Source of the DNA: Asparagopsis taxiformis
Taxonomy: Eukaryota > Rhodophyta > Florideophyceae > Bonnemaisoniales > Bonnemaisoniaceae
Reading direction: 5' to 3'
Length of the DNA: 64,000 bases
NCBI GenBank assembly: GCA_030407315.1
Contig: JALQPE010001029.1
Location: forward strand, 1-64,000
Notes under the pieces: model-generated
The model's database searches: none
What the model was told of the DNA's origin: nothing
The model's input: only the letters and a program-made list of their open reading frames with translations
Part shown: positions 15,294 to 61,681 of the stretch, piece after piece
Layout: each line of letters starts with the position of its first letter
How positions within the stretch are numbered: the first letter of the stretch is position 1
Position numbers and translations under genes: made by a program

Positions 15294-15428
15294 CTAGGCA
15301 GCCTGCGTTGCATTGGAAGTATTCTTGTCCTTCTTTTCCTTGTTGTCGGCAAAATCGACAATCGAGTCGATAAATTCGGATGAAGAACGCGAAAGAAAGG
15401 GTCGGGCAAACGTCACAAAACAGTTCAT
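15294..15428 (-). CDS. Tail-family micropeptide 1 (44 aa)
   Basis: The minus-strand ORF starts with ATG at 15428 (MNCFVTFARPFLSRSSSEFI) and ends DFADNKEKKDKNTSNATQAA then TAG. The last 12 residues are the signature shared with five other small ORFs in this window. The first half is Ser/Phe/Arg-rich and unlike the others. A TATA box lies about 95 nt upstream. Codons of the shared tail (AAT ACT TCC AAT GCA ACG CAG GCT GCC) differ at many third positions from the other copies, which supports translation. The function is unknown. The protein is too short for an enzyme, has no strong hydrophobic signal, and the highly charged linker before the tail suggests an exposed C-terminus. Confidence 0.7.
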   Translation of the reverse strand: MNCFVTFARPFLSRSSSEFIDSIVDFADNKEKKDKNTSNATQAA

Positions 15429-15519
15429 GTCGAAGAGCGCTAGCTTTTTTGAGTGATGGGATTGAAATTTGGGTTGTCTGAATGTCGGATGATGCTAAAC
15501 CTGCAAGTATGCGACGGGG

Positions 15520-15526
15520 TTTTATA
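15520..15526 (-). promoter_or_regulatory. TATA box of micropeptide gene 1
   Basis: Minus-strand TATAAAA within CTATAAAACCCC, about 95 nt upstream of the ATG. Confidence 0.5.
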
Positions 15527-15809
15527 GAGAACGACTGACAAATGTCAAAAGCAAAGATCACGTCTAGAGAGGACTGTGAATAGAAGAGACCATTTCTCCA
15601 GCCAGAGTGATAGAAGCGACATCGGGTTGGAGCCTACTCCTGGAGAGGACGCATTGTTGAAACAGTTGGCTGGATGAGCAGAAAGCATGTCCTCGCAGCC
15701 AGTGAGATGAGCTTTTCTGATGACAGCAGATGCAAATAAAGATAGCGGCGAGTTGAAGGGGAACGCAGACGTTACATTCGGAGAACTGTGAGAAGAATTG
15801 AGCTATGGA

Positions 15810-16139
15810 TTTGAATTGTTGGGAAGTGTGAGAGCGTTATTGAGCGGTGCAATGAGAACGAACAAATGTGTGTTTAGATAGGAGCGGAGAGCAGAGAACA
15901 AGAGCGTGCAGAGCTTGTCTATCTAACTGTCTTTCTATCGTAAGTAGCTACTAGAGCAGTATTTATAGCTGTAGCTGTGCCACCAAACATCGATGTAATT
16001 ATTACAGCTTGCAACCAAACGGGAGAGCATTCTCCTGGAGAGTATACAAAGTGTGATTAATATTGAGTCAGAGCTGTACGTAGTTTCGTGTCGATCTGTT
16101 GGTACATGAGTCACAATATTTCATACACAATATTTCATA
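15810..16139 (-). repeat. 3' LTR of copia D (330 bp)
   Basis: Matches 20678-21007 base for base by eye. On the minus strand it begins TATGAAATATTG and ends CAATTCAAA, so the usual TG/CA ends are slightly internal. Confidence 0.9.
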
Positions 16140-16165
16140 CTCCCTCACTTTTTGCTGGATGGATT

Positions 16166-19100
16166 TCATCCAGTGAATCCATCAGAGACACGGACTTGTA
16201 TCTCTGTGAAATCACACGGTAATGCACCAGTGAACATCATGAGCTGGAGGGCGGAGCTGATTGGGCTGTTCATCTTTGTTAAGGGATCAGATAGGTTATA
16301 CTTTCCCGGAAGCCATATCATTCTTGAAACAGTGCGTGTTTCGAATTCATATCTGATAAGAGCTACATCACCACGGATAGATCGGTCTGTTGCCATGCGG
16401 CATGAAGAGATAGTGTCAAACAGATCCTTGGAGTCGAGAACACATAGCAAGGAAATTTCCATATTCAGCAGAATTTCATATGCTTTCTTGAGTAATTTAG
16501 CTTCATCAATCGCTGATCCAGTTGCAAGCACTTCTGCTGATGCAACTGACTTGACAGGGCGTTTAGATTTAGATGAGTGCCAAGATAATGTGTGCACAGT
16601 TGATCCATTAGTCAAGTCACCAATTAACAACACAGCTATGTATCCAAGCTGTCCATGATCTTCTTTTCTGCTTGCATCGGCAAAGGATAATATGGAGAGT
16701 GTGTACTTTTGTCCTGTTTTCGGTCTCTTGAAGCGTATGATACTCCCAAGTTTCTTGACAGTCTTGAGGATATTGATCTGTGTAATTAGATCGTGCACTG
16801 TGGAATTTGGCGCTCGCTGCTGTAGGTAACTGGACATGAATGAGCAAAATGGAGACGCAGCGACACCTATCCATCCTAGAGAGCTGTTGACAGACCGAAA
16901 TGTCGATAACTCAAGATCATTGAGCTTGGATTCGTTTTGTTTGCGTCTCAATCGGTCTATTGGATGACCTTCAAGAGCAGCAAGCTTTTCATCACCATGA
17001 ATGGTGATGCTTAGGTCTGATTCCTGACATATTGTGAGACCATAAAACTTGAAAGAACCCGGGCCGTATACTATGGTGCCGAGATTGTAGCAACTGGATA
17101 TATTGTTGATCACATCTTCCAGTATACTGAGCGGTGCAGCAAACAATATGTCATCAACTACCTTCACGGCAATTATGGAGAGCTGACCATTCACTTTCTT
17201 GTAGAAGAGTTGTGGAATGTAATGCAGTTGAAAGAATCCAATACTACTCAGAAACATGTCACTCACAGCTTGCCACTTGGCATTTGCGTTCACTAAGCCA
17301 TAAGCAGCTGTAAGTAGTAGCCAGTAAAAACGTGTTCGAGTGGAGCATTCACGGGGTGGGACAACGTAAACGTCCCTCAGCGCTTCTCCGGTCTGGAGGA
17401 ACGCAGACGAGAAATCAACCTTAGCCAAGTTCCACTTGTACATTGCAGCAATCGATAACAGCATCCGAATTCCGACAGGTGGACACGTCGCTGAATCAGT
17501 TTTGAGATTGTCACGGTCCAGATCCTTGTTGCCATGAGGAGCTATTCTGGCTTTGACGAGGCGCTTGCCGTCGTCTGTAGTCTTCACTTTGTATATCACA
17601 TGACTTGTTATAATGTTCGCATCTTTTGGAACCTGGGTAATGGGTACTTCACGGACAGTCTTCTTGAAGGACGCTTCTTCGCGTTCATAAGCATTTTGCG
17701 TAACGAAGGAAGGTAACCCTTGAGCGTAGTGAAGTGAGAATTCTTTGTCGTGGAAGACATTGAAGTACTCATCAGTTGCATTTCTTTCCACACTAGAAAG
17801 CTCAGCGCCAGGTAGCATAGTGATCTTGTTGCTGGAAACAGTTTTTTCAGGAGCAGCAGCAGAAAGAAATCTCCAACGTTCATTGGAGAGATCAAGATCC
17901 TCTGCATCACCGTCATCGTAAAATATGTGATACTTGCCAGTTTCTTCATTAAGTTCTGATACAGTTCCAGGATAGTATGTCCTATCCTCTGGCCAATAAA
18001 CTTCAATCAAATCTCCTGTAGAGGGTAACATCTTTTCATCGTTACTATTGGCTGTATCATTGCTGGATGAAGTTGAAAAATTAGTGTGATTGGCTTGATC
18101 GGATGTCAGATCAAAATCCGCATTGTTTCCGAGAGAGGGAGCGGTATCAGGGTATCGCGTAGTTGCAGGTTTTTGAGTATGCAACACATCTTGTATGGAA
18201 TTTTCCAGTTCATCTATGGCCTCTTGGATACTTATTGCAAGTGGATTATCACATACAGCTGCTCGGACATCTTCAATTGCAGCACGAACGACATGTCCAT
18301 TCTTTCCTGGTACTGTGATACAGTGTGTACTAGGATCAAAACTTAGTACTGGTTTGGGAGAAGTCCATTTGCCTCTCTTTTCATGCTGTCGTTTGATGAA
18401 GATTTGAACTAAGTCACCGACACATACAGGTGACGTTGAAGTCGATTTAGACCTCAGTATTAAATTGAGTTTGCGCTTTGCAATGAGCATCTCATGGGCA
18501 GTATACAACTCGTTCGGTATCTCCACAGGAGTGGAACCAGGTAATATAGGTCTTGAGTAACCTTTTGCCAATTCATGGGATGAGATGACGTCATTTCCGT
18601 ACAGGTCATTGGAAATGCGAAAGGTTTGTTGGACTATAATATCATCAGTGATTGAGCTGTCATTATCATTACATTCTTTGAGACGTAGGAATATGTCACG
18701 TAGTATCTTGTGTTTTGATTCCAAAACGTTTTTGTTGTGACGACGAGGTGGGAGTGGTATAGGGTCAATGCCACATTTTCTGAGGTATGATATAAATGAA
18801 GAGTTGTCAAACGCAGCATCAAATATAACACCACCAGGTGTCCAAAATTGTGACACCCACTGTGCCTCAAAAACACAAATAGCGTGTTTCATTCCAGTGT
18901 CATGGACAATGGAACCAGCAGAGTATCTCACACTTGAGTCCATGATATGGAAAACAGCGTGTTCATTCAAGAATAAGTGATCAATGCAAACTTTTTCATT
19001 AAATGATCTGTTCATAGAGCTGAGCGAGACTTTGCGGGGCGTCTTCGGGACTGAAGTAGTCTTGCAGTTGATGCAGTTTTCAATAGTATCACTCAGGTAT

Positions 19101-20674
19101 TTTGATACACATTCATCCCATATGCCATTTCTCTGCAGTAGCAGCTTCATGTCAGAGAAATTAGAATGTCCGCAGACATGTAAGTGCACTTTGTCAATGA
19201 TGTGCTTTGTATCCTTCCAGGATAAATCACCGTCTACACCATTCAGAACAGATGTTGCGCAGAACAGCGTCATCTTGTCAACAGTTTGTATGGATTTTCC
19301 ATAGTTGTAGAATACAGAATGTGGGATGTATGAGTGTAGATCATAGTCCACCAATGAAATCGAGAGATGCTGTGTACCTCCATCCAATGCTGGTATCTGT
19401 AGCAAATTATTCTTGATGTGTACAATGTCACAGTACCTGGTGACATTGCGACCAATTACCCACTGAGAGGATCCTTCAATAATTAAATGTCTTATTCGTA
19501 CAGAAACTCCTTCATCAGTGGTAGCATTTAGGTAGACAGATCCAAGTATCCTTCGTACTTCACTTGAATGAGCTCCAGATCCATACTTCCAGAATGGACG
19601 ATCAGCAATTGTGTCTGGCAATTTGTGGAGCTTGCCGCTCCAATTAGGTAGAACCATTGGTTGGATCGCCCGGAATTCACTCATGCCCATTCCACTATAC
19701 GGAGCTCCATCGTCCAGAAGTGGACCAATTGAGCAGAACAGGTTATTATCGGCAGATGGCAACGAAGCCATGTGAAAAGTGACGGCCTTTTTTGTATCAG
19801 ATCCAGAATCTCTTGTGTTTCGTTGGCTGGGTTCAGGTGTTGATGTGACTCCCGGTTTTAAAGAGCCGTCAGGGTTGTGATCGGATGCCCAATGGCCATA
19901 GCTAGAGCATAGATTACACTTACAGCGTGATTTGAGGTCGGCAAGCTGAGCTGGGTTTAGCTTACGTCGGATCTTCGTTCCAGAACGGTGCCTCGTATGT
20001 GTCGCAGTAGCAGAGTGTGTGTGAATCGAACTCGTATCAGTGTTACTGGAAGCATCACATTGCCTGAGAACTGAGGCGATAGAATCGTAAGAAACTGCAG
20101 ACAAGAAGTCATCTGTTTTAGACTTTCGTGTAGGCTTGAAATCTCGGGGGGCTGACGCAGCAAGTATAGAGATACGTTGATTACTGTCGACATTGGAATT
20201 TGATAGCAACATAAATGATACTAGAGCATCTGGGAGCTTGCAGAGCGAGGATTGCGAGTTAAACTTGGATACTTTTGCCAAAAAGCGGGACTCGAAGTTC
20301 TTAAATGTCTCTGTAGTCCCCCTTCTTGTGTTCAGTAGGCTGTTGAAGTCATGATAGACTTCACTAACAACTGCTAGTGGGTCACGTTTGTGCAGAGCAT
20401 TGACAATTGCATCAACGCCTTCTTCAGATTGGATCACTTTTTCGTCAATGAGCTTGACAATATCACGTGCACGGCCAAAAAGCTGCGATTGGAGCATGAT
20501 GCCCTGTAATTCGGTAGGAATCTTGCTGCCATGGTTATCTGGGAGTTTCTCATGGAATGCACGCCAAAGCGAAACAGAGTCTGCGTATTCTTCTTGATCA
20601 CCCTTCCCGTCAGTCCATGGGACGGTCTTTGAGTCCCAAGCAAACCGAGGGCGACTGGGTAGATCTGGGCCCAT
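16166..20674 (-). CDS. Copia D Gag-Pol polyprotein (1502 aa) with Tudor-like domain
   Basis: A single ORF carries all functions in copia order. Gag: residues 1-250. A CCHH knuckle (CNLCSSYGHWASDH) is at 253-266. The protease active site is LLDDGAPYSG at about 319-328. The integrase zinc domain spans about 497-537 (HVCGHSNF ... CINC) and its acidic core is CIDHLF, VIFDAAFD and NVLESKH (about 563-655). A Tudor-like segment lies at about 887-938 (DLIEVYWPEDRTYYPGTV; YHIFYDDGDAEDLDLSNERW). RT spans about 1015-1230 (AKVDFSSAFL; KVVDDIL in place of YVDD). RNase H follows (LSFADASRKEDHGQLGYIAV; LDSKDLFD). The atypical protease and VVDD motifs place it in a divergent copia lineage. The ATG at 20672-20674 lies inside the primer binding site. 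It is likely competent. Confidence 0.95.
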   Translation of the reverse strand: MGPDLPSRPRFAWDSKTVPWTDGKGDQEEYADSVSLWRAFHEKLPDNHGSKIPTELQGIMLQSQLFGRARDIVKLIDEKVIQSEEGVDAIVNALHKRDPLAVVSEVYHDFNSLLNTRRGTTETFKNFESRFLAKVSKFNSQSSLCKLPDALVSFMLLSNSNVDSNQRISILAASAPRDFKPTRKSKTDDFLSAVSYDSIASVLRQCDASSNTDTSSIHTHSATATHTRHRSGTKIRRKLNPAQLADLKSRCKCNLCSSYGHWASDHNPDGSLKPGVTSTPEPSQRNTRDSGSDTKKAVTFHMASLPSADNNLFCSIGPLLDDGAPYSGMGMSEFRAIQPMVLPNWSGKLHKLPDTIADRPFWKYGSGAHSSEVRRILGSVYLNATTDEGVSVRIRHLIIEGSSQWVIGRNVTRYCDIVHIKNNLLQIPALDGGTQHLSISLVDYDLHSYIPHSVFYNYGKSIQTVDKMTLFCATSVLNGVDGDLSWKDTKHIIDKVHLHVCGHSNFSDMKLLLQRNGIWDECVSKYLSDTIENCINCKTTSVPKTPRKVSLSSMNRSFNEKVCIDHLFLNEHAVFHIMDSSVRYSAGSIVHDTGMKHAICVFEAQWVSQFWTPGGVIFDAAFDNSSFISYLRKCGIDPIPLPPRRHNKNVLESKHKILRDIFLRLKECNDNDSSITDDIIVQQTFRISNDLYGNDVISSHELAKGYSRPILPGSTPVEIPNELYTAHEMLIAKRKLNLILRSKSTSTSPVCVGDLVQIFIKRQHEKRGKWTSPKPVLSFDPSTHCITVPGKNGHVVRAAIEDVRAAVCDNPLAISIQEAIDELENSIQDVLHTQKPATTRYPDTAPSLGNNADFDLTSDQANHTNFSTSSSNDTANSNDEKMLPSTGDLIEVYWPEDRTYYPGTVSELNEETGKYHIFYDDGDAEDLDLSNERWRFLSAAAPEKTVSSNKITMLPGAELSSVERNATDEYFNVFHDKEFSLHYAQGLPSFVTQNAYEREEASFKKTVREVPITQVPKDANIITSHVIYKVKTTDDGKRLVKARIAPHGNKDLDRDNLKTDSATCPPVGIRMLLSIAAMYKWNLAKVDFSSAFLQTGEALRDVYVVPPRECSTRTRFYWLLLTAAYGLVNANAKWQAVSDMFLSSIGFFQLHYIPQLFYKKVNGQLSIIAVKVVDDILFAAPLSILEDVINNISSCYNLGTIVYGPGSFKFYGLTICQESDLSITIHGDEKLAALEGHPIDRLRRKQNESKLNDLELSTFRSVNSSLGWIGVAASPFCSFMSSYLQQRAPNSTVHDLITQINILKTVKKLGSIIRFKRPKTGQKYTLSILSFADASRKEDHGQLGYIAVLLIGDLTNGSTVHTLSWHSSKSKRPVKSVASAEVLATGSAIDEAKLLKKAYEILLNMEISLLCVLDSKDLFDTISSCRMATDRSIRGDVALIRYEFETRTVSRMIWLPGKYNLSDPLTKMNSPISSALQLMMFTGALPCDFTEIQVRVSDGFTG

Positions 20675-20677
20675 AAC
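20662..20677 (-). other. Primer binding site of copia D overlapping the start codon
   Basis: Minus strand GTTATGGGCCCAGATC directly after the 5' LTR. It is complementary to a CAT-anticodon arm of the type TCTGGGCCCATAAC, i.e. initiator tRNA-Met. The polyprotein ATG is bases 4-6 of this site. Confidence 0.7.
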
Positions 20678-21007
20678 TTTGAATTGTTGGGAAGTGTGAG
20701 AGCGTTATTGAGCGGTGCAATGAGAACGAACAAATGTGTGTTTAGATAGGAGCGGAGAGCAGAGAACAAGAGCGTGCAGAGCTTGTCTATCTAACTGTCT
20801 TTCTATCGTAAGTAGCTACTAGAGCAGTATTTATAGCTGTAGCTGTGCCACCAAACATCGATGTAATTATTACAGCTTGCAACCAAACGGGAGAGCATTC
20901 TCCTGGAGAGTATACAAAGTGTGATTAATATTGAGTCAGAGCTGTACGTAGTTTCGTGTCGATCTGTTGGTACATGAGTCACAATATTTCATACACAATA
21001 TTTCATA
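20678..21007 (-). repeat. 5' LTR of copia D (330 bp)
   Basis: Apparently identical to the other LTR. It would contain promoter and poly(A) signals of the element. Confidence 0.9.
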
Positions 21008-21012
21008 ATGGA

Positions 21013-22069
21013 GCACTTTGCAGGGAGAATGGTCGATAAGATGTCAATGCAGAGTTTACTATGGATAGGGTTGGAAAACAGAAATCTGCGAGAAAGAATA
21101 TGGACGTGTGGTGCGGAAGATGATCAGCTGATGGAGTGAAGGATGTGAACAGGCTCGCACTGTATCACGATATCCGTACTGAGACACTGAAAAAAGAGCG
21201 GATGAGCCATCGATCATTTCCGAATAGCAATTATGGTACTTACTGGAACGCTGACGTCAGTACTGAGATAAGCAAAGTTGGAAAATATGGCGTTGCTGGA
21301 GTTGGAGCAGCCACTATGAAACATTTTAGTGTTGCTGGGTACTACGACAACTGTTTGGTCAAAAGGGGAGCTATCTGAACGCTACGCACGAGTAAATTTG
21401 GCATATTTTTCAAAATCGTTCCGCGTCAGACCACATGGACTGCTCTACGAATTATCGTCAAGGAGGCTCCCTCGCGAGGTCAGCTATTATCATGTCATGG
21501 CGGTGAGCTCGCGCCACGCAACGGATTAGAATTGTTTGACTTGCAACAGAGCGGCCTGGAGTTCCGCTCGTAGCCAATGCGCCAAGCATGAATCGAATCA
21601 TGCCTGCTGTGCGCCACCATCCCAAGCAATGAAAATCTCTCAGCGTCGATATCGATGAATAGCGGTAACTGGCCAAGCATCTTCGAAACCAACGCATCGG
21701 CCACGCCAAAACAGACAGTTACATGTCTGTTGCATCCCTAACGATTCCGTTGGACGCGATTGGAGTCACTGCAGTGATTGGACTCTGCATCTTGCGTCTT
21801 TGATTCCAACCCATGGATTAAAATTGATAAAATGTTTTTTGGTATATTTCAACACTGGCCAATGGATTCTCTCTCATGTAATTTAGTTTTCCGTGCGCCG
21901 CTAATTTGGTCCTCATGCCGTGAAGCATTCGCGCCTTCAAGGACCATTTGAGGCTGAATCGTGCGTTGACGTGGCATGTGTAAATATCATGCCAACATGG
22001 TGGCAACGCGTATGACGCATTTGACTGACAAACTCGTTCATTTTGTTCACTGGATTTGATGTGTGCTTC
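21013..22069. other. Flank between copia elements D and B
   Basis: Directly at the insertion site of D an ATG (21008, inside the target duplication) opens a 42-codon frame beginning MEHFAGRMVDKMSMQSLLW. Without D it would be preceded by the sequence left of 15810. Other short open frames (21136-21378; 21458-21709 minus) have no recognisable motif. No RNA gene was seen. Confidence 0.3.
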
Positions 22070-32418: not shown

Positions 32419-32562
32419 TTATACAGCCGGAGTGGCATCAGAGGTGCTCTTGTTCGGACCTCCACTGAAATCCATGGGTTTGACTTTCAATTTCCACACA
32501 ATAACAGGCTTTGACGGCCCGGGACGTTTGTCTCCTGAACCTTTGTTCTTGACAGGCGGCAT
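32419..32562 (-). CDS. Tail-family micropeptide 2 (47 aa, divergent tail)
   Basis: ATG at 32562 (MPPVKNKGSGDKRPGPSKPV), then IVWKLKVKPMDFSGGP, ending NKSTSDATPAV and TAA. The end matches the family pattern T-S-(N/D)-A-T-x-A-(A/V)-stop, and the MDF before it recalls the (V/I)DF or VNF of copies 1, 3 and 6. This copy is very basic (many Lys) and lacks the KDK run, so membership is less certain than for the others. No clear TATA box; CTATAGCTTAA lies about 85 nt upstream. Confidence 0.5.
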   Translation of the reverse strand: MPPVKNKGSGDKRPGPSKPVIVWKLKVKPMDFSGGPNKSTSDATPAV

Positions 32563-33942: not shown

Positions 33943-34068
33943 TTACGCAGCCTGTGTTGCGTTAGAAGTGTTCCTATCTTTTGATCTTCGGAAATCAATG
34001 AGCCCATGCTCGAAGGTGAAGCGGGACACACGCCCGTGTCGCGAGGATGAAGAAGTGAACGTAATCAT
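33943..34068 (-). CDS. Tail-family micropeptide 3 (41 aa)
   Basis: The preferred start is the ATG at 34068 (MITFTSSSSRHGRVSRFTFE); the frame is also open further upstream. It ends LIDFRRSKDRNTSNATQAA then TAA. The segment from the aromatic residue to the stop is nearly the same as in copy 6 (VNFRRSKDKNTSNATQAA) although codons differ (AAC ACT TCT AAC GCA ACA CAG GCT GCG here). A TATA box lies about 150 nt upstream. The N-terminal half is Ser/Arg-rich and unlike the other copies. Confidence 0.7.
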   Translation of the reverse strand: MITFTSSSSRHGRVSRFTFEHGLIDFRRSKDRNTSNATQAA

Positions 34069-38706: not shown

Positions 38707-38847
38707 ATGGAGTGCATGATCACGCAAGGTGCCTCCATGAAGTGTTCACGAGTTTCCTCGTGGCATTATACAGGCCCAGAATTTGCAGATTGGAACAAGG
38801 ACAAAGACAAGGACAAAGATACATCTAATGCGACGAGTGCTGCATAA
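38707..38847 (+). CDS. Tail-family micropeptide 4 (46 aa or shorter)
   Basis: Possible starts are the ATGs at 38707 (MECMITQGASMKCSRVSSWH), 38716 and 38737. All end EFADWNKDKDKDKDTSNATSAA, here with four KD repeats before the tail and Ser for Gln. Tail codons (GAT ACA TCT AAT GCG ACG AGT GCT GCA) differ from those of copies 1, 3 and 5. The frame is also open upstream to 38497, so the start is uncertain. The 3' flank shows no similarity to the other copies. Confidence 0.6.
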   Translation: MECMITQGASMKCSRVSSWHYTGPEFADWNKDKDKDKDTSNATSAA

Positions 38848-40009: not shown

Positions 40010-40017
40010 TATATATA
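40010..40017 (+). promoter_or_regulatory. TATA box of micropeptide gene 5
   Basis: TATATATA in CACATATATATACTC, about 85 nt upstream of the ATG. Confidence 0.5.
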
Positions 40018-40099
40018 CTCGGCAAATTTATTGAAAACTCGCATAACCCCAGGCCCAGTCTCAGCAGACATGCGTCCGAATCCCACTTTGGACAAACGA

Positions 40100-40252
40100 A
40101 TGATGTATTCATGCCAATCTTACGTGAACGAGATCTCCATTTCTATTCCATATCTTCAATCCGCTTCTTCACCAACAATAGCTCTCGTTGGTGCCGTTGA
40201 CTGTGGAAAATCAAAAGACGAAGATACGTCGGATGCGACTCAAGCCGCATAA
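40100..40252 (+). CDS. Tail-family micropeptide 5 (49-50 aa)
   Basis: ATG at 40100 or 40103 (MMYSCQSYVNEISISIPYLQ). The middle (SASSPTIALVGAV) is mildly hydrophobic, then DCGKSKDEDTSDATQAA and TAA. Here the tail has Asp in both variable positions and its own codon set (GAT ACG TCG GAT GCG ACT CAA GCC GCA). The frame extends further upstream, but the TATA box at 40010-40017 favours the start near 40100. Confidence 0.65.
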   Translation: MMYSCQSYVNEISISIPYLQSASSPTIALVGAVDCGKSKDEDTSDATQAA

Positions 40253-40664: not shown

Positions 40665-40758
40665 GCCTCCCTAGCTCAGTCGGTAGAGCGACAGACTCTT
40701 ACCTGGCCTGTCGGCGAGTGGCATCTGTTGGTCGCGGGTTCGAGCCCCGCGGGAGGTG
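40665..40758 (+). tRNA. tRNA-Lys (anticodon CTT) with 21-nt intron
   Basis: All arms pair. The acceptor is GCCTCCC with GGGAGGT (terminal G-U pair), the D-arm GCTC...GAGC, the anticodon stem ACAGA with TCTGT, and the T-arm GCGGG-TTCGAGC-CCCGC, with discriminator G. The loop is CTCTTA + A with anticodon CTT. The 21 nt at 40702-40722 interrupt it one base 3' of the anticodon, the canonical position of nuclear tRNA introns. A box (TAGCTCAGTCGG) and B box (GGTTCGAGCCC) are perfect. CCA is not encoded. Confidence 0.95.
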
Positions 40759-40769: not shown

Positions 40770-42219
40770 GACACCACTCTTTGACGAGTGTATCGCTATT
40801 AATTTTGTTTGGGTATCACAATTCTCCCTGACCAGTCCACTCCGCTCCAACCATGTATCTAGATATATGTCTTGAGGACTGATCAGAACTTATCGGCTCG
40901 GACGAACACTACAAAATTATAGTTCAGCAATTATGAACATAAGTTTTTTCTCACTCTATCTGTGACTCTGTGACGTGTGTAGCAAATCTTTGTTCCTCTC
41001 TTCGCAATATCCTGTGACCTTTCTTGACAATGTTCGATACACTGTGGAGTTAGTTTAATTTTTGTTTATGACCAGAGTTTTTGATCCTGGTCAAAGTTGA
41101 TCATTTCAGATGATGATCTGATATTGTCTCCTCTGATGATGGCTCTCTCTCTATTAGAGGGCATTTCATCTCCACTTAAATGTTGTTTGTGGAGTCAATG
41201 TTGATTGTTATCAACATTATCTATCCGTTTGTGATATGTCTGAAGTATTCTATCTAATTATTTCAACGGTAGTTCAAGTTGTCTGTTATTTGCATTCTGC
41301 AAATATTTTGTAGCTTGTATCGCTTCAAGCCACAAATGGCTACACGTGTACAATCCTAATTCCATCTCCGACACGTATCGGCCTAGATGGAAACATATGA
41401 AATCGACATCATCTTCCCCGGAGTAGCACACCTCTACCTTTCTGTAGCACCGCCTCTCACAACGATGTATTCGTCTCGTTTTATCGTTGGACACATCCAA
41501 GATATATCTCAACACAATGTGACTTTTCCCTTCCCGTCAACTCGACATCTGCCGTTTCCTTCAAGAGCTGTCACAAAAATAAATTGTATTCATACCGCAT
41601 ACGTAGCCGAACATCAAAATCCATTATACGGATCAACAGCGCAGTCCTCTATTTCCTCCTGATGGACTCCGTAAGACACCCCATTGGCAACAAAGCGGAT
41701 AAACACTTTCGTTTATGTGACTCACTCTGAAAACATTCTAAAGTATGGTTTTAGATTCCCCCTGCAACCCTCCGTCCTGCTTTGTTGATTCCTGCCCTTC
41801 ATGCTAGCTCAGAACAGCATCTGCCAAATACAAACACTCTACTCCTCTCGCCAAATATCCCGTATTCATGTCATAGTGGGAATATCATAACAGCAAATGA
41901 TTGGTTTCACTAGCATGGATATCACCGTGACTTGAAAGTCATGCTTCAGGTCTAAACAATGCATTGAAGTATGAATCCTCTGTTTGATTTCACATCGTCT
42001 TTAACCCCCAGATGAAATTCTTTATTTCGATCTCTGCTGAACTTCCACACAGCGAGAGACTGCTATCTACTGTTATCCTCGCTGTCATTTCACGATCATA
42101 TCGAGCAGACGGCAGCTTGCATTGAAATTGTTCATACAGAGTTGACCACAGTATACTTCTATTTTTTCTGCAGCTAGCAGCTTTTTAGGAGATATATCGC
42201 ACCTGTAGCTACTTTATAT
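40770..42219. other. Intergenic, no gene recognised
   Basis: A 91-codon plus-strand frame (41387-41662) is open but without motifs. The DNA is pyrimidine-rich towards 42200. Confidence 0.3.
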
Positions 42220-42271
42220 CTCACATCCTCCTCTCATTTCAAATTCATCTGCACTGTTCATTCATCATCGC

Positions 42272-42790
42272 CTATCCACTCGCATCAACCTCACCACTCC
42301 CCAACACAGAATCCGCAATCGAGTCCATATCGTCCCCACTCATGTCCATGTTATCCACATTCCCATCATCATCCTCTTCACGTTCGCTGATCTCATCCAT
42401 CTCTGTCCTCGGAATCAACATCCGGGACGCAGACCGACGCAGACACACTCGGAGCGTGAATTGGATTCCAGCCACTGCACGGGGTATACTGATGATTCTA
42501 GGTCGTACAAAGTATGGCCTGCAGTTGAGTCCGAGTCGATTCAAACTGATCGGCGCGAACGTCCTGATGCAGGCCCTCACGAGGCCGATAGGATCGTTGG
42601 TCGGGAACAGGCCGCGATTGGCTAGGAAGCACAAACAGGCAAGGTCTCGTGCAACTCGGCGGCGAGAGCAGCGTGCGGACTGGTGCTCAGATGTGGAGAC
42701 TTGTGTGGCGGCTTGTTTTGCTGGAGTAGCAGAACAGAGCAGTGCTGAGCAGAGGAGGGCGAGGAGCAGGGTGAAGAATGTGGTCTTCAT
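42272..42790 (-). CDS. Secreted six-cysteine protein, 172 aa, left copy
   Basis: ATG at 42790 in good context (ATCACCATGAAG). The N-terminus MKTTFFTLLLALLCSALLCS is a clear signal peptide with likely cleavage after ATPA (residue 24). The mature part is strongly basic (SARCSRRRVARDLACLCFLA; LVRACIRTFAPISLNRLG) with six Cys at about 41, 52, 54, 74, 90 and 116. The last 45 residues are acidic (EISEREEDDDGNVDNMDMSG). This is the layout of a small extracellular disulfide protein with an acidic C-terminal extension. I recognise no family. A TATA box and a long CT-rich leader support expression. The right-arm copy is identical in protein sequence. Confidence 0.85.
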   Translation of the reverse strand: MKTTFFTLLLALLCSALLCSATPAKQAATQVSTSEHQSARCSRRRVARDLACLCFLANRGLFPTNDPIGLVRACIRTFAPISLNRLGLNCRPYFVRPRIISIPRAVAGIQFTLRVCLRRSASRMLIPRTEMDEISEREEDDDGNVDNMDMSGDDMDSIADSVLGSGEVDASG

Positions 42791-42921
42791 GGTGATTTGA
42801 GATGGGTGTGTGTAGAAGGTAGGATTGGTTGTATTGCGGAGAGGATTTGTTGAGAGAGAGTGTGTGTTGTTTGTTGAGTGTGGGGTGTGTGGAGAGGTGA
42901 TGAAGGGGGATGGGTGAGGAA

Positions 42922-42927
42922 TTTATA
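42922..42927 (-). promoter_or_regulatory. TATA box of the left secreted-protein gene
   Basis: Minus-strand TATAAA (CCTATAAATTCC), about 130 nt upstream of the ATG, followed by a C/A/T-rich leader. Confidence 0.6.
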
Positions 42928-43027
42928 GGAAAGGGGAAGGGTGAATCTGTGATATCGGACGGGGGTGGGGTGAGTGTATGAAGTGTATGGAGGGGAAGTT
43001 TAGGATGTGAGGAGAGTATTGGAGGAA

Positions 43028-43160
43028 GAATGACGCACATGCACAAGTATGAGCACGTGTGTGAATATGTGTATGTGTATGGGTGTGAGCAAGTTTGTGA
43101 GAAAGTGTGCATGTGTGTGCGAGTTTGCGTGTGTATATGGGTGTGTGCGTGTATATGAAG
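43028..43160. repeat. Imperfect GT/CA-rich simple repeat, left arm
   Basis: GTGTGTGCGAGTTTGCGTG and related units upstream of the secreted-protein promoter; mirrored at about 47136-47268. Confidence 0.6.
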
Positions 43161-44239
43161 AGTTGGATTGGGTCAGAAAGACATAGTGACTGTTACTGTT
43201 GTCGCTGTTGAGATTGAGGATGGGAATAGAATGGAAAGAGATGTGGAAAGTGAGTGATGCGAGTGGGAAGAGCGGTGATGGACTGAAGGGATGGGAGAAA
43301 AGGAGACGAAATGGACAGCAATGGAGGGTTTTCTGAGTGGGGGAGGGGGAATTGGCGCAGGGAGATATGGAAGAAGAGGAGGAATGAGACAATTACAACT
43401 ACTGAATGACTGATCAGGTAGAGAAGGCAAAGAAATTAGATGGGATAGAGGGAGCAATCATGTTTGACTGGTATATGGTTGGAACAGGAGTACTGACGAA
43501 ACTGTGTAGGAACTAAATTAATTTAGGTTTGCGTCATACTACTGAAGGATGAGATGAATTTATATGAAAGGTTCCGACAGAGTTGCGGCTTGCTGGTAAC
43601 ACTTGGTTAGATGATGGCAATTTTTACTCGTATTCTAAGCTTATTCTATCATTGCTGCCATCCACTGGCATTTTTGTAGCCCTCTGCAAAACAAATATAC
43701 CATCTGGCAGAAGTTTCACCATGTTTCCGGTCACGAAACTACGGAACTGCACTGATCTAAAGAAATATTTTTGGCCCACAAGCGGAGAGGCCCGTAGACA
43801 GGTTCTCTTTGTTTCATCTCTTATCATGCACGTAATGTGTAGTATTTTGTACGTCATTTAGACCACAGCATAGAGTCCTTTTCCTGCCAACTAAGAGTCT
43901 CTAGTACTGACTACCACTGATTTTATCCGCTTTCTCTGATTTACCTTGAGAAGGCAGGAAAAGTTAACAAAACGAAGAGTCGAAACTCTATCGAGTTGCA
44001 CCATGTCTTGCAGTTGCTGACTGTCGCTTACACAACTGAAGATAAGTCACTGACAAATGCCCGAACGGATAAACAGCTCGACAGGACAATTGCGTTTCCT
44101 CTTTTGCAACCCGCTCGAGTACAGGAAGAAACATGTTTCTGGTATAACGAGGACAGCGTTAATAGGGTGACTGCCGTGGCACTCTCGATGCGTAAAACGC
44201 AATCCAGATATAGAAAACAATAATCCTGAAATATAAAGC

Positions 44240-44658
44240 TTACAAGATCTTCCTCTCAGCGCGTGACATGTGTCGTTCGTCTGTAAGTCTATGTCGAAAA
44301 GGGTATCTACACTTGATGTAAGTCAGAAGTGTGGAAGGCTTCCACCACATATCAACCGGGCGCTGCTCGGTGAAGGGTTTCTCTTGTTCAGAACCCTGAA
44401 ATTAGTGCATGCCAACTTGGTAAATCAAAAGACAACCTAAATTTATCGCGCAACCTACACGACAAGGAATGTGTGTATTATGCTCACCAGAACAAAATAT
44501 ATCCTGTACGAACCACACGAAATTGTGTTTCCGTATGTCTCTGCACTTGTATATCTCTGATAGCCAATATCTATCGGCGCTGAACGCTCGCGCGAAGTAA
44601 TTGTTGCCTTTTCCCTATCATCACCAGCAACAATGAGAGTGCTGTCCTCTCCCCACAC
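44240..44658 (-). CDS. Possible two-exon ORF in the left arm
   Basis: Mirror of 45638-46056, see there. Confidence 0.2.
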
Positions 44659-44677
44659 TGACCAATGGGTGCGAATT

Positions 44678-45618
44678 AGTCATTGCTATCTGAAAAGGTC
44701 CATAGGACTCAGCCATTTCATATAGTTTGTTCTGTATTCAAGAAACCCCACAAAAGGGTGTGCTCAATGTCCTCCCCTCATGGCTGTCTAGGATTCATTT
44801 ATATCATGAATCTGGGCTCTTTCTGTTTCTGGCCAATTTCTCAAGTTCCGCTCGGGCAACGATGTCACCCCTCTCAGAAATGATGTCATTTCAAGAGTAT
44901 GGAGCCCATTTCATTCCTGTCAGTACCCGAAATCATACGTTTAGTATATCTGGATTCACGTTTAAAACTTACTGTTTTTTACGTAATATATATTGTATTT
45001 CTTGACCAAACTGCACTCAGCCAAGAGGATGGGACGTCCAGCTTCAACCTGAATTTTCTTCATGAAAACCAAATACCCTACACCTGCAAAATAGCTGTAA
45101 AGACAATCATTTCCACTGGACTCTTTCATCTTTTCACAAGTTGGAGTGTGGTATGTGACCTCAAAAAGCCGGGACCAACTGATCCAAATTCTCCATATTA
45201 AGCCACTATTCCTGAGGCGATTTTATACTAGGACGTATTCGGAATTCTATAGTATCCGCACTCGTCACATGGGACCTGTAGGCGAGAGGTATCACTTCTC
45301 AGAATCTTTACGAAAATGGCCACATCACAATACAAACATCTATAGGTAAAACTGAGAATGGCATCTTCTCCGTCCTCCATACTATTTCAATGTCACTTGC
45401 ACACACCTCCAATTTTATTTCTACAAGCTCACCACTCTCTCTGTCCAGAGCTCAAAGCCTCACTCTGCCATGGGTTCATTCTGAGATATCTATTTCACAC
45501 ACATGCACACAGATACACGGAAATTCTCCCAGACCAGAGGAAAAACCCTTGTTTTCATTTTCTTTCCATTATTACTCGATCAGTTATTCAGAAGTTGTAA
45601 TTGTCTCATTCCATGACC
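44678..45618. other. Spacer of the inverted repeat (941 bp)
   Basis: Unique DNA without a recognised gene; open frames of up to 111 codons show no motif. At its right end (about 45560-45612) it carries a diverged copy of a segment that also occurs inside the right arm at about 46862-46915 (shared GTTGTAATTGTCTCATTCC). Confidence 0.6.
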
Positions 45619-45637
45619 AATTCGCACCCATTGGTCA

Positions 45638-46056
45638 GTGTGGGGAGAGGACAGCACTCTCATTGTTGCTGGTGATGATAGGGAAAAGGCAACAATTACT
45701 TCGCGCGAGCGTTCAGCGCCGATAGATATTGGCTATCAGAGATATACAAGTGCAGAGACATACGGAAACACAATTTCGTGTGGTTCGTACAGGATATATT
45801 TTGTTCTGGTGAGCATAATACACACATTCCTTGTCGTGTAGGTTGCGCGATAAATTTAGGTTGTCTTTTGATTTACCAAGTTGGCATGCACTAATTTCAG
45901 GGTTCTGAACAAGAGAAACCCTTCACCGAGCAGCGCCCGGTTGATATGTGGTGGAAGCCTTCCACACTTCTGACTTACATCAAGTGTAGATACCCTTTTC
46001 GACATAGACTTACAGACGAACGACACATGTCACGCGCTGAGAGGAAGATCTTGTAA
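45638..46056 (+). CDS. Possible two-exon ORF in the right arm
   Basis: An open frame ends at 45808 (SGSYRIYFVL-type end, codon boundary) before GTGAGC. A 92-nt candidate intron ends in ACTAATTTCAG at 45900 with a CTAAT branch-like sequence. The next frame continues in phase (GSEQEKPFTEQRPVDMWWKP; RYPFRHRLTDERHMSRAERK) to TAA at 46054-46056. No ATG starts the first exon, so an upstream exon or a false call is possible. Unknown product. Confidence 0.25.
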
Positions 46057-47135
46057 GCTTTATATTTCAGGATTATTGTTTTCTATATCTGGATTGCGTT
46101 TTACGCATCGAGAGTGCCACGGCAGTCACCCTATTAACGCTGTCCTCGTTATACCAGAAACATGTTTCTTCCTGTACTCGAGCGGGTTGCAAAAGAGGAA
46201 ACGCAATTGTCCTGTCGAGCTGTTTATCCGTTCGGGCATTTGTCAGTGACTTATCTTCAGTTGTGTAAGCGACAGTCAGCAACTGCAAGACATGGTGCAA
46301 CTCGATAGAGTTTCGACTCTTCGTTTTGTTAACTTTTCCTGCCTTCTCAAGGTAAATCAGAGAAAGCGGATAAAATCAGTGGTAGTCAGTACTAGAGACT
46401 CTTAGTTGGCAGGAAAAGGACTCTATGCTGTGGTCTAAATGACGTACAAAATACTACACATTACGTGCATGATAAGAGATGAAACAAAGAGAACCTGTCT
46501 ACGGGCCTCTCCGCTTGTGGGCCAAAAATATTTCTTTAGATCAGTGCAGTTCCGTAGTTTCGTGACCGGAAACATGGTGAAACTTCTGCCAGATGGTATA
46601 TTTGTTTTGCAGAGGGCTACAAAAATGCCAGTGGATGGCAGCAATGATAGAATAAGCTTAGAATACGAGTAAAAATTGCCATCATCTAACCAAGTGTTAC
46701 CAGCAAGCCGCAACTCTGTCGGAACCTTTCATATAAATTCATCTCATCCTTCAGTAGTATGACGCAAACCTAAATTAATTTAGTTCCTACACAGTTTCGT
46801 CAGTACTCCTGTTCCAACCATATACCAGTCAAACATGATTGCTCCCTCTATCCCATCTAATTTCTTTGCCTTCTCTACCTGATCAGTCATTCAGTAGTTG
46901 TAATTGTCTCATTCCTCCTCTTCTTCCATATCTCCCTGCGCCAATTCCCCCTCCCCCACTCAGAAAACCCTCCATTGCTGTCCATTTCGTCTCCTTTTCT
47001 CCCATCCCTTCAGTCCATCACCGCTCTTCCCACTCGCATCACTCACTTTCCACATCTCTTTCCATTCTATTCCCATCCTCAATCTCAACAGTGACAACAG
47101 TAACAGTCACTATGTCTTTCTGACCCAATCCAACT

Positions 47136-47268
47136 CTTCATATACACGCACACACCCATATACACACGCAAACTCGCACACACATGCACACTTTCTCACA
47201 AACTTGCTCACACCCATACACATACACATATTCACACACGTGCTCATACTTGTGCATGTGCGTCATTC
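47136..47268. repeat. Imperfect CA-rich simple repeat, right arm
   Basis: Mirror of the GT-rich tract at 43028-43160. Confidence 0.6.
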
Positions 47269-47368
47269 TTCCTCCAATACTCTCCTCACATCCTAAACTT
47301 CCCCTCCATACACTTCATACACTCACCCCACCCCCGTCCGATATCACAGATTCACCCTTCCCCTTTCC

Positions 47369-47374
47369 TATAAA
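47369..47374 (+). promoter_or_regulatory. TATA box of the right secreted-protein gene
   Basis: TATAAA in TTCCTATAAATTCC, about 130 nt upstream of the ATG. Confidence 0.6.
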
Positions 47375-47505
47375 TTCCTCACCCATCCCCCTTCATCACC
47401 TCTCCACACACCCCACACTCAACAAACAACACACACTCTCTCTCAACAAATCCTCTCCGCAATACAACCAATCCTACCTTCTACACACACCCATCTCAAA
47501 TCACC

Positions 47506-48024
47506 ATGAAGACCACATTCTTCACCCTGCTCCTCGCCCTCCTCTGCTCAGCACTGCTCTGTTCTGCTACTCCAGCAAAACAAGCCGCCACACAAGTCTC
47601 CACATCTGAGCACCAGTCCGCACGCTGCTCTCGCCGCCGAGTTGCACGAGACCTTGCCTGTTTGTGCTTCCTAGCCAATCGCGGCCTGTTCCCGACCAAC
47701 GATCCTATCGGCCTCGTGAGGGCCTGCATCAGGACGTTCGCGCCGATCAGTTTGAATCGACTCGGACTCAACTGCAGGCCATACTTTGTACGACCTAGAA
47801 TCATCAGTATACCCCGTGCAGTGGCTGGAATCCAATTCACGCTCCGAGTGTGTCTGCGTCGGTCTGCGTCCCGGATGTTGATTCCGAGGACAGAGATGGA
47901 TGAGATCAGCGAACGTGAAGAGGATGATGATGGGAATGTGGATAACATGGACATGAGTGGGGACGATATGGACTCGATTGCGGATTCTGTGTTGGGGAGT
48001 GGTGAGGTTGATGCGAGTGGATAG
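47506..48024 (+). CDS. Secreted six-cysteine protein, 172 aa, right copy
   Basis: Identical protein to the left-arm copy, transcribed outward. Promoter, leader and coding sequence are all inside the duplicated arm, so both copies should be regulated alike. The 3' flank diverges about 30 nt after the stop codon, where the arm ends. Confidence 0.85.
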   Translation: MKTTFFTLLLALLCSALLCSATPAKQAATQVSTSEHQSARCSRRRVARDLACLCFLANRGLFPTNDPIGLVRACIRTFAPISLNRLGLNCRPYFVRPRIISIPRAVAGIQFTLRVCLRRSASRMLIPRTEMDEISEREEDDDGNVDNMDMSGDDMDSIADSVLGSGEVDASG

Positions 48025-48059
48025 GCGATGATGAATGAACAGTGCAGATGAAGTTGAAA

Positions 48060-48635
48060 TGAGTGAAGAATGTGAGGTTGAGTGTAGATAGGAGTATGGG
48101 CATGTTTTTTCCAGTCCAAAATCATCCACTTGATCTCAAAATGATAGCAGAGTTGTATCTTTAGTTATTACATCTGTTTTGAAGAGCTGCTCGCAGCAGC
48201 AGATATTACTTGAGGGGTAAAGCATTACGATCGGAGCTAAACAAATCTATGTTTATCCAATTGCTTGAAAATGAGTTTGAGTAGATAGCGCCCCAATTCC
48301 AAGAGAATGATGAATTGATCTTGGACAACCCCCTTTTGTCATAGAACTACTTAAGTCATTGTGGAAAAGTGGTCTAATGGATTAAGTTTTGAAATGTGAA
48401 CTGCGAAACAGTAAGTATCGATTGAAGTGTTTATGATGGTTCTAGCGCGATAGGATACGGGGTTTCCTCCGCTTCAATTGCGGATCTCGCCATAGAATCT
48501 TGGCAATCCTGCCAGAGTGCGTCTATTGGTGATTTTATCAGACCACAGAGCTGGTGTGGTGCAGTTTTGCAAGTCTCAGGGAGCTGGTAGATTCGGTCAG
48601 GATGGTAACTCATGCGACGAAATAATTGCAACCAA
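48060..48635. other. Flank between the inverted repeat and element E
   Basis: A 60-codon minus-strand ORF (48431-48613, MSYHPDRIYQLPETCKTAPH) starts with ATG just beside the insertion site of element E. It has no TATA box or known family and could be a small gene separated from its promoter. Confidence 0.3.
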
Positions 48636-54965: not shown

Positions 54966-54968
54966 TTC

Positions 54969-55235: not shown

Positions 55236-55344
55236 TATTTTCCACAATGTGTCTTTGTCATTCGAACAACCAAGTTCAGTAAGGCAACTTGTGCCCATTT
55301 TGGTGACTCTATCCATCTCACGAACATCTGCCGACACTAGCACG

Positions 55345-55676: not shown

Positions 55677-55864
55677 ATAAGTTTAAACTTTTTGTGCTTG
55701 TGGACAGGTCTGCAGTGATTGAAATTCATTGTATTGGCTGGAAGACAGTGTGCTCTAATAGGTTGACGCTCGGTGACCAATTCCTGAGCGGCGATAACAG
55801 TTGGCAAGTGGGAAGCGTAAGTGAGGGCGACAATAACATTCAGTGAAACAAGTTTGATAACACG

Positions 55865-59900: not shown

Positions 59901-60429
59901 GGAGTTAGCAAGGAGGCTTGCAGAGTTACATTGGCAATTAATACAGAGGGGGAGCAAGGCACGTACAGATGCAGCTAAGCAGTACAATAAGCTAGCAAAT
60001 GCTGTGGAGTTTGAAAAGGGTGATCGTGTTATGGTGTATAATCCTCGCCACCACATGGAGAAAGGGAGAAAACTGCGTACACCATGGATGGGGCCGTATA
60101 TAGTGCAGGAGGTGCTAACTAATGTTTCATATATTGTCAAGTCTGAAGTTGGACTGGATGTCGCTCGGGTGCATGTCAATAGACTTCAGAAGTATGATGA
60201 GGATATATGTGAGACTGGGGATCCTATCGATGGGGTCTTCCCAGACAGTCGAAGAATTATCAAAAGTATAATTGGGGAAAAGATCAGGGATGGCAAACGG
60301 TGGTTCAAGGTGAAACACACCTATGCAAATGGAGCAGAATGGGTCAGTGAGGCAGATCTACCTACGTTAATTGTTGCAGAGTATGACACAATAGTCGCAT
60401 CGAAGGCCATACGCTCTGTGGCAAAGTGA
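56887..60429 (+). CDS. Gypsy F Pol (PR-RT-RH-IN), expressed by -1 frameshift
   Basis: The frame opens after a TAA at 56884-56886 and has no ATG before the protease, so translation must enter from gag. Protease: VAVVDTGAFSIWMDK. RT: MRCTTDFRALNSRTVS, FTAFDLKDGYFQVQLDES and VWAFMDDGNIG (FMDD in place of YxDD). RNase H: VVMTDASDYGIGGVLL, AEKECLAVVHALKKWRHH and VKSDHQALKWL. Integrase: HGARPNGHQGVW with CVNCSLHR, VAVDVLEV (first Asp), KLLSDRGKTF (second) and DGFIERFNRTL (Glu). The C-terminus (GKRWFKVKHTYANGAEWV) is weakly chromodomain-like. All catalytic residues are present, so the element is probably competent. Confidence 0.93.
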   Translation, partial: WSVVGKLEWERSTAKYAGLAPEVNIETLCHCQDTTINDFPEMIYDDTMEEMSDIVIEVRFDVNGTEVRKVAVVDTGAFSIWMDKTMFKSLNGTLIEDGCAAFGADGKKLDIAGKGYIDFSIWGCKMSQEPIRVMRKLASGLLFGRRFWMRYMFKMDLETMKGCIMVGSTRYEGSLRRKYIEDEEIRAVIEDADVDAEIRGMDLTQFHSTTEMQERLRGVIWKHRMIFKEVGCIKGYKHEIKLVKDAEPVVVPIRRRSPAEQAVEEKMMEKLLQKGILEHSESEWAANNVFVPKRDGSMRCTTDFRALNSRTVSDQHPMESVRETLDWLASKKVFTAFDLKDGYFQVQLDESSKPYTAVRTVKGLLQYTRLPQGLKNSPAVFQRLVNLVLGKYKGRSVWAFMDDGNIGTIDEESHLEELDEILTCMWNAGMRLKISKCRFGVQEVEVLGHRVTANGLKPSETHITAIRNLKEPQTLTELLRFLGLVNYFATFLPNFTNRAKPLYDVLKDSGCNRKKRWRNDSHNIIDWDKKWGDKQRNAWQDLKEGLCDPHELASPDCKKQKVVMTDASDYGIGGVLLQESNKDEWRPIAFTSRKLKGAEQRYTVAEKECLAVVHALKKWRHHLHGGMQFTVKSDHQALKWLISLKEPKGRLARWMIEVQDYDFVVEYAPGQSLAVADTLSRDSVTNTRCPRCNELIMMMTERERSLPTVEQIKEGQRTEFEDLERLITERSNYVLDGDGLLCLAEGSSMRIIVPKLLIPQVLDYAHGARPNGHQGVWKTMQWVERRFWWKGWRNDVSERVRKCVNCSLHRLGKPGVQGNMKKWHPLRRFQVVAVDVLEVSTSNMRGTSKAVVMGDLFTRFVWATAVKDERAETISQVLLDEWILRFGPPEKLLSDRGKTFMSEMVQHLCTCVGAKKIFTSPYHPQTDGFIERFNRTLMKDIRAYVSVEENDWVQHLPMACFRYNTAVNSATGMTPYKAVFGVDAFDFDAEAGRRMAIDQEPESNEELARRLAELHWQLIQRGSKARTDAAKQYNKLANAVEFEKGDRVMVYNPRHHMEKGRKLRTPWMGPYIVQEVLTNVSYIVKSEVGLDVARVHVNRLQKYDEDICETGDPIDGVFPDSRRIIKSIIGEKIRDGKRWFKVKHTYANGAEWVSEADLPTLIVAEYDTIVASKAIRSVAK
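56899..56905 (+). promoter_or_regulatory. -1 ribosomal frameshift site (GGGAAAC) of gypsy F
   Basis: In the gag frame it is read as tcG GGA AAC, the exact X-XXY-YYZ phase. It lies inside the gag/pol overlap. After a 6-nt spacer, GGGAG (56912-56916) can pair with CTCCC (56945-56949). The same heptamer is used by some plant luteo/poleroviruses. Confidence 0.7.
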
Positions 60430-60450
60430 GGATAAGCGAGTGAGGCCGAG

Positions 60451-60782
60451 TGTTACGTGGGAGCAGAGAATGGTACCAAGCCAGGTAACCAAAAAGCCGA
60501 CACTTAACATCAGTTGATAGTGTATTGCACCGCAGTGCAGCGTATTGCGTTGACATGCAATGCAGTGCCATCATGTGGAAATAATTTACAGAATGCAAAG
60601 GAGACAAACCAAAGATTTCAGGAGAGTATGGGAGAAAGTAATTATCAACACTGGAACCACTGACAGTATAAATAGGTAGCAATGAAGAGTAGAAAGGGGA
60701 GATCAGGAATGGAGAACGGAGGAAGAGAGAGCAATGAAAGAATAAAGGAGAGGGAGTTTTACTTTCATACCGGTATCTAACA
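60451..60782 (+). repeat. 3' LTR of gypsy F (332 bp)
   Basis: No difference from the 5' LTR seen. Confidence 0.92.
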
Positions 60783-60786
60783 CACG

Positions 60787-61388
60787 CCATCGCCGTCACC
60801 AAGCTTGATGAACTGCTGACAACAACGGCACTCATGGGTGGCATCGGTTTCAGAAATACAAGCGGCAATTCGACACAGCGCAAGGAATGGGAAAGGAAGT
60901 TTGGGATCAAATTTGCTTTTCCAGAGTCAACAACAAAGTAGACGACAACATTGTGAGCATACTCATGCGTGATTCTCATCTGTAATTAAGTAAACTGATC
61001 AGCTCAACGTGCCCGAGCCTCCTCAAGAACAAAACCTTACTTGAATCAGACATACGTCCGTGTCCTATTGAAACGATGTACCCGCGTGGAATATCTGACG
61101 TGTACGCATATTGTCTGCATCAAATTACACAAAAACTAAATTCCCAAATTTTCATTAGATAAGTAGCCTGGTTAGCACTACCGAGTCCTATTTTATTGAA
61201 AACAACTTTATGGTTCTAGGACATAACGAGCACAATTTGTCGTAGCCAGTGTTCTCTTCCAATAGAGCAAGGAAAGATGATGAGTAACAGCGCAGCTTCA
61301 TCTGCATGACTGGGCAGATAAAAGTTACTTCTTGCCCATGCTTTGCTGGGCAAGCCCGCGACGCACTTGATGAATGTAACATTCCCTC
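60787..61388. other. Intergenic, no gene recognised
   Basis: No motif found; an 88-codon minus-strand frame (61188-61454) overlaps the promoter of the next gene and is probably chance. Confidence 0.3.
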
Positions 61389-61390
61389 GG

Positions 61391-61397
61391 TATATAA
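61391..61397 (+). promoter_or_regulatory. TATA box of micropeptide gene 6
   Basis: TATATAA in CGGTATATAAGCC, about 150 nt upstream of the ATG, followed by a pyrimidine-rich leader without another ATG. Confidence 0.6.
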
Positions 61398-61543
61398 GCC
61401 ATCACTTACCTCACTCTTTTCCCATTTCTTTGGGACAGGCATCAAGCGACACACCTCTTCTCTCTACATCTTCAGGACCTTCAAGCACTCTTCACTGATT
61501 CTCAAAGTTTCTCAATTTCATCCGTCGAGCCACACTTCCTGAA

Positions 61544-61681
61544 ATGGTCTCCTTCAACAACGAACTTTCTTCCCCTTTTTTGGACTGCAGAGCAGTTTCT
61601 TCCCATCAATTCTCAGACGTTTCTGTCAACTTCCGCAGATCGAAGGACAAGAATACATCTAATGCGACCCAAGCTGCATAA
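61544..61681 (+). CDS. Tail-family micropeptide 6 (45 aa)
   Basis: ATG at 61544 is the first after the TATA box (MVSFNNELSSPFLDCRAVSS). The product ends DVSVNFRRSKDKNTSNATQAA then TAA. This is the clearest member: promoter, leader, single short ORF and a full tail. The last 18 residues match copy 3 except at two positions, but nucleotides differ at many third positions (AAT ACA TCT AAT GCG ACC CAA GCT GCA). No signal peptide or membrane segment. Function unknown. Confidence 0.75.
   Translation: MVSFNNELSSPFLDCRAVSSHQFSDVSVNFRRSKDKNTSNATQAA

Follow-up and report, generated by a model that had tools for sequence, protein, structure and literature searches.

The first 64,000 bases of contig C1028 of the red alga Asparagopsis taxiformis (the window; the contig has 66,745 bases, in an assembly of 141.5 Mb and 3156 contigs) contain six very short open reading frames (ORFs), on both strands, whose predicted products end in similar peptides at the stop codon. 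All six are present with the coordinates and termini that an earlier note on this DNA had given them. On the minus strand, p15294 (15294..15428) encodes 44 residues with the tail EKKDKNTSNATQAA and is preceded by TATAAA at 15521-15526, 98 nucleotides (nt) 5' of the ATG. The gene at 33943..34068, also on the minus strand, encodes 41 residues with the tail RSKDRNTSNATQAA and has TATATATG 153 nt 5' of its ATG. A doubtful, divergent member, p32419 (32419..32562, minus strand, 47 residues), has the tail GGPNKSTSDATPAV and, 124 nt 5' of its ATG, TACATATA, a match that is not significant. On the plus strand lie p38847 (38707..38847, 46 residues, tail KDKDKDTSNATSAA), with TACATATA 159 nt 5' of the ATG, again not significant; p40252 (40070..40252, 60 residues, tail KSKDEDTSDATQAA), with TATATATA at 40010-40017; and p61681 (61544..61681, 45 residues, tail RSKDKNTSNATQAA), with TATATAAG 153 nt 5' of the ATG. 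For p40252 the previously assigned end holds, but the start moves from 40100 to an earlier in-frame ATG at 40070, the first after the TATA box, which lengthens the product from 50 to 60 residues.

The family extends beyond these six genes. A seventh gene of the contig, p64465 (C1028:64462-64590, minus strand), lies just outside the window, and 14455..14523 (minus strand) is probably the remnant of another member's tail, a 22-residue open frame that has no ATG and ends RSKRWNISEATQAT; it scores 22.3 bits in a profile scan of the window, against a shuffle maximum of 14.7 for the same profile. Six genome-wide protein searches, using as queries five members and one 21-residue tail piece, set lower bounds on the family's size. 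All their matches fell within two sets of allelic contigs: C1028, C2333 and C2925, and C106, C154 and C175. Five members are added in this way to the first six, as the earlier note had expected of a real family. Each haplotype thus has two clusters: seven genes in the first, with stops at C1028 15294-, 32419-, 33943-, 38847+, 40252+, 61681+ and 64462-, and four in the second, namely c62100 (C106:62097, minus strand) and a plus-strand trio, c84780, c86933 and c88409, ending near 84905, 87058 and 88528. Ten genes are firm members, including five of the six in the window, and one, p32419, is doubtful; all eleven encode 41-60 residues. The C2333 copy of p15294 is identical to it over all 44 residues, and p32419 differs by one amino acid between its two haplotype contigs.

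The resemblance of the tails is far beyond chance for the firm members. With a leave-one-out profile of 14 residues, derived in each case from the nine other members then identified (some with identical tails), the five firm members of the window score 34-47 bits among 2642 ORF ends, whereas 30 dinucleotide shuffles gave nothing above 16.3. The claim that six ORFs form one tail family therefore holds for these five, while p32419, at 11.8 bits, is left in doubt.

Codon substitutions indicate what is being conserved. Over 45 pairs of the ten firm genes (p32419 set aside), the proportions of synonymous (pS) and nonsynonymous (pN) differences are 0.821 and 0.151 in the tail, compared with 0.737 and 0.570 in the 14 codons that precede it. 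Third positions in the tail thus vary while the residues are kept, as had been proposed from inspection. The similarity does not continue past the stop codon. In 15-nt bins, with the pair c84780/c86933 omitted, mean nucleotide identity over the remaining 44 pairs is 0.63, 0.73 and 0.73 across the final 45 nt; beyond the stop it drops at once to 0.24 and stays at 0.24-0.26 throughout the five bins compared, in agreement with the view that the 3' flanks are unrelated. Among the genes compared with their flanks by blastn, family alignments likewise run no further than the stop, give or take a few bases, and longer matches are stretches of neighbouring genes held in common. The possibility that the tail belongs to a DNA repeat running into the 3' flanks was thus tested and is not the case. 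Since synonymous sites are saturated, residues are held and identity ends at the stop, the comparisons support purifying selection on the C-terminal end of a predicted peptide, a pattern that a DNA repeat could not easily give.

Two members of the second cluster afford a view of how the family changes. Counting from the end of the stop codon, c84780 and c86933 differ at only two sites between -310 and -20, and their 3' flanks are unrelated (29/100 identical). In the last 19 nt four sites differ, all of them synonymous (AAC/AAT, GCT/GCA, ACG/ACA and GCT/GCC). The simplest account is a chimera: one member would have received its promoter and body from another, the join falling within the conserved tail. 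As both parents carried the same peptide, it would be unaltered across the join. For one comparison c86933 was left out, being identical to c84780.

The four TATA boxes reported for window genes were found again. A TATA(A/T/G)(A/T) box lies no more than 300 nt from the stop in 8/10 genes, and c62100 brings this to 9/11; in the remaining two, TACATATA occupies a comparable position, a match without significance of its own. A full 8/8 match (P 0.012 each) is seen in six of the eleven, counting both genes of the near-identical pair. The box of p40252 lies outside the stretch scanned for scores and is known from separate inspection. Upstream words of 7 and 8 letters, some of them TATA-like, are each found in at most 4/10 genes. 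Between 30 nt past the TATA box and the chosen start the ten genes together contain two ATGs, both belonging to p38847, where shuffles predict 9.46 (P 0.002); c84780 was omitted from this count, and setting the start of p40252 at its first ATG (40070) favours a low value. We read the genes as independent and apparently intronless, each with a promoter of its own; their transcription and translation are inferred.

The earlier note had pictured a conserved tail on fast-evolving, unrelated bodies. The conserved C-terminus and the divergence of the body stand, but six members contradict the assertion that the first halves have nothing obvious in common: they possess a shared middle block, SSxxF...(I/V)DF. 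Once a 3-residue insertion in p15294 is removed for register, identity in this block is 0.38 among the six, compared with 0.12 in 5000 shuffles (shuffle maximum 0.23), so that the idea of unrelated bodies holds only in part. On a simple measure of hydropathy the members appear to have no strong hydrophobic leader: the highest 10-residue mean, among stretches that begin no later than residue 25, ranges from 0.37 to 1.68 in the eleven genes, with c62100 at 1.68. One micropeptide modelled without an alignment gave a mean predicted local distance difference test score (pLDDT) of 67.5 and a predicted template-modelling score (pTM) of 0.18, with no confident fold, and is uninformative about function.

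No relative of the micropeptides was found in a set of 5.8 billion proteins at E values up to 10 (23 and 1288 candidates), a negative whose reach is limited, since small proteins probably often go unpredicted in collections of this kind. The three members tested have no Pfam match, and a full-text literature search for the letter strings of the tail returned no paper. Judged by these searches the family is new; its kind, short proteins with a conserved C-terminal peptide, has known parallels.

The closest parallel seems to be with the plant PROPEP/Pep and systemin systems. Peps are described as roughly the final 23 residues of PROPEPs, of which the final 10 closely contact the receptor (PMC4526913). 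Propep1 is reported to be cut by a metacaspase after Arg and is predicted to be largely unstructured, and prosystemin has no secretion signal (PMC13157962). Common to these systems and to the algal genes is a C-terminal peptide on a divergent body, here partly conserved in six members. The algal precursors may also resemble the plant ones in being largely unstructured and in lacking a classical secretion signal, the latter judged here by hydropathy. The texts cited describe the last residue of Pep as important and the peptide as lying at the C-terminus (PMC4526913, PMC13157962). The algal genes differ in their sequence, in precursors of only 41-60 residues, in a red algal host and in being known from genes alone; as the protein-set and Pfam searches revealed no sequence homology to known Peps, the family is not classed with them. 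The plant systems have hosts of their own, Peps being described as occurring across the angiosperms and systemin as found in Solanaceae alone (PMC13157962). A receptor of the leucine-rich-repeat (LRR) receptor-kinase class is conceivable, since a survey describes homologues of these kinases in lineages that include Rhodophyta (PMC13091385).

By analogy with these systems, we tentatively propose, as the likeliest reading but with rather more doubt than confidence, that the genes encode leaderless precursors from which a C-terminal peptide is released, and that its free end is recognised by a partner. The body would be a fast-evolving carrier, and the functional element would be the conserved C-terminal stretch of about 14-18 residues, which extends precisely to the free carboxyl terminus. 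A protease cleaving on the C-terminal side of Arg or Lys, such as a metacaspase, would release this hydrophilic peptide by a cut just before or within the tail (R/K)-S-K-D-K-N-T-S-N-A-T-Q-A-A, and a partner that requires a free C-terminus would read it. That selection extends over the final residue but not past the stop codon suggests recognition of the carboxyl end as such. In the codon table the first tail position is basic in 9/10 members, which would be compatible with a site for an Arg-directed protease.

Several observations weigh against this proposal or against the family on which it is built. The middle block is conserved in six members, and a pure carrier would not need it. The tail begins with E in p15294 (K is next) and with G in p32419. 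The 11.8 bits of p32419 exceed the shuffle mean of 6.5 but fall below the shuffle maximum of 14.7, so that its tail alone does not prove membership; moreover, it was returned by none of the six genome searches, and its own search returned only itself and its allele. The tail-only genome search recovered 6/10 firm genes, missing p15294, p38847, c88409 and c62100. That single search showed no larger protein carrying the tail, a weak negative in view of the four firm genes that it missed. The TATA-like scores of p15294, p32419, p38847 and p64465 are not individually significant (background P 0.175 each), and the start of p38847 is less certain, with two out-of-frame ATGs upstream of it. The p61681 allele on C2925 has a frameshift in its first half; since C2925 and the window, aligned over the 1000-nt flanks of this gene, show 8 and 6 gap columns and no mismatch, the frameshift is taken as a sequencing error. 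Conservation is seen solely among paralogues of one genome, with no homologues found elsewhere in the searches. Finally, plant Peps vary more than the algal tail, AtPep1 and ZmPep1 being given as 20.8% identical (PMC4526913).

The conserved middle block bears on a second explanation, doubtful but in need of serious consideration, in which the micropeptide would act intact inside the cell. Its free C-terminal tail would dock on a partner or serve as a C-degron, and the whole protein would be a regulator with no release step. The pattern of tail selection and the modest hydropathy fit equally well here, and the middle block is easier to account for in a protein that stays whole. C-degrons are read by KLHDC proteins in humans, and a kelch-repeat gene with a Pfam KLHDC2/KLHL20/DRC7 kelch domain (C106 at about 75.7-77.2 kb; L043:674-2191, minus strand) ends about 7.6 kb from the C106 trio. 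However, the N-terminal region of this kelch protein is Cys-rich, the protein may not be part of a ubiquitin ligase, and a single adjacent gene is a weak indication.

A further close rival, though rather unlikely in itself, is that the micropeptides are imported into an organelle, with the variable half serving as a plastid (or mitochondrial) targeting peptide and the tail making up most of the mature product. Transit peptides evolve fast and are rich in Ser and Thr. A Phe occurs within the first 12 residues of 7/11 members, and two phycobilisome linkers of this genome begin MAFVAAAP and MVAFVGAN, as read from the first Met of open frames. Yet 4/11 members have no Phe in that position, the N-terminal half of p32419 has eight basic residues and 7% Ser/Thr, and an N-terminal part of 23-29 residues, as found in 10/11 members, is probably short for a transit peptide.

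Still less probable is an upstream ORF (uORF) whose nascent chain arrests in the ribosome tunnel and so controls a downstream main ORF. C-terminal conservation up to the stop codon in the first ORF of a transcript is a hallmark of arrest-peptide uORFs, of which the arginine attenuator peptide is an example of the conserved-peptide kind, and the algal genes display both the conservation and, in the presumed mRNA, the position. Unlike such uORFs they are followed by no conserved ORF: frames of at least 25 residues within 1.4 kb 3' of ten genes (c62100 not included) have nothing in common, the comparison giving one match at E 0.001 inside a single flank and otherwise nothing below E 0.16. The longest downstream ORFs with an ATG are 53-138 residues long, the one of 117 being the next family gene and the one of 133 the start of a copia frame. 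Main ORFs that are spliced would escape this comparison. The pair c84780 and c86933 keeps promoter and peptide despite unrelated 3' sequence.

A repeat or mobile-element fragment that is open by chance is the least credible explanation and very nearly negligible: although about half of the window (about 33.4 of 64 kb) lies between repeat pairs read as the long terminal repeats (LTRs) of gypsy-type and copia-type retrotransposons, and further copia frames are found near the C106 trio, the six ORFs and the remnant are outside the LTR-bounded intervals, and the saturated third positions, conserved residues and boundary at the stop speak against it.

The layout of the genes, very short ORFs clustered on both strands of a repeat-rich region, also recalls the pheromone precursors of basidiomycetes. 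A mushroom mating locus was rejected as a reading, because none of the micropeptides ends in a CaaX box and the genome is red algal. The phycobilisome linker domain PF00427 has 13 matches in it, all above the cut-off, four on C469 (taken as plastid) and nine elsewhere; of 14 control genomes one matched, a cyanobacterium. The 5.8S sequence likewise did not look fungal. A search for STE3 gave no match, though its 14 controls were also silent.

If release of the C-terminal peptide does occur, a broader scheme can be envisaged, although we regard it as unlikely in its entirety. Leaderless precursors would supply a peptide signalling system specific to red algae, with the free tail read by a receptor. 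Recombination inside the tail, of the kind suggested by the C106 pair, would shuffle promoters and bodies among copies and so place one signal under many controls. Multicellularity in red algae arose independently of that in plants and animals. Among the literature matches listed, titles and the openings of abstracts describe no peptide signal in red algae, which is not proof of absence. A nearly invariant C-terminus among paralogues with saturated synonymous sites is a testable candidate, whether as such a signal or as a new motif for recognition at the C-terminus. Conservation of the tail also makes genes of about 45 codons detectable in repeat-rich seaweed DNA.

The neighbours of the two clusters include a 481-residue ORF at 12761-14206 of the window (plus strand), which belongs to a small gene family with 15 matches in the genome, some containing stops. 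Copies occur on C1028 and on C106/C175, those on C106 at 52.7, 54.7 and 95.8 kb flanking the second cluster. As a partner gene it was rejected, for the family is also present on C2322, C172, C2561, C689, C922 and C2593, where there are no micropeptide matches. It has no match in Pfam and no sequence match in the PDB; one relative in the protein set is 96% identical over 56%, and structure prediction gave a low-confidence model (mean pLDDT 35.9). The interval from c62100 to the trio holds, besides the kelch gene, genes for an animal-type haem peroxidase, a chromate-transporter-like protein, a GRDP-like protein and a glucose/sorbosone dehydrogenase-like protein.

Other features of the region deserve brief mention. 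A copia-type retrotransposon frame at 16166-20704 (minus strand, 1512 codons) has a Tudor-like domain, PF21743 (E 8.9e-07), before the reverse transcriptase domain, and its end repeats (15810-16109 and 20678-20977) are 100% identical. A perfect inverted repeat of 2478 bp, at 42206-44683 and 45613-48090 with a 929-nt spacer, is either a recent palindrome or an assembly artefact; each arm contains an ORF with MKTTFFTLLLALLCSALLCSATPA, which resembles a signal peptide. An RNA-family scan of the window identified one RNA gene, a tRNA-Val (TAC) at 40665-40758 (plus strand), which at 94 nt is longer than usual and probably has an intron. Elsewhere in the genome, contig C2536 carries 5.8S copies at 14545, 31840, 49197 and 66412, a spacing of 17.2-17.4 kb that suggests a long ribosomal DNA repeat unit.

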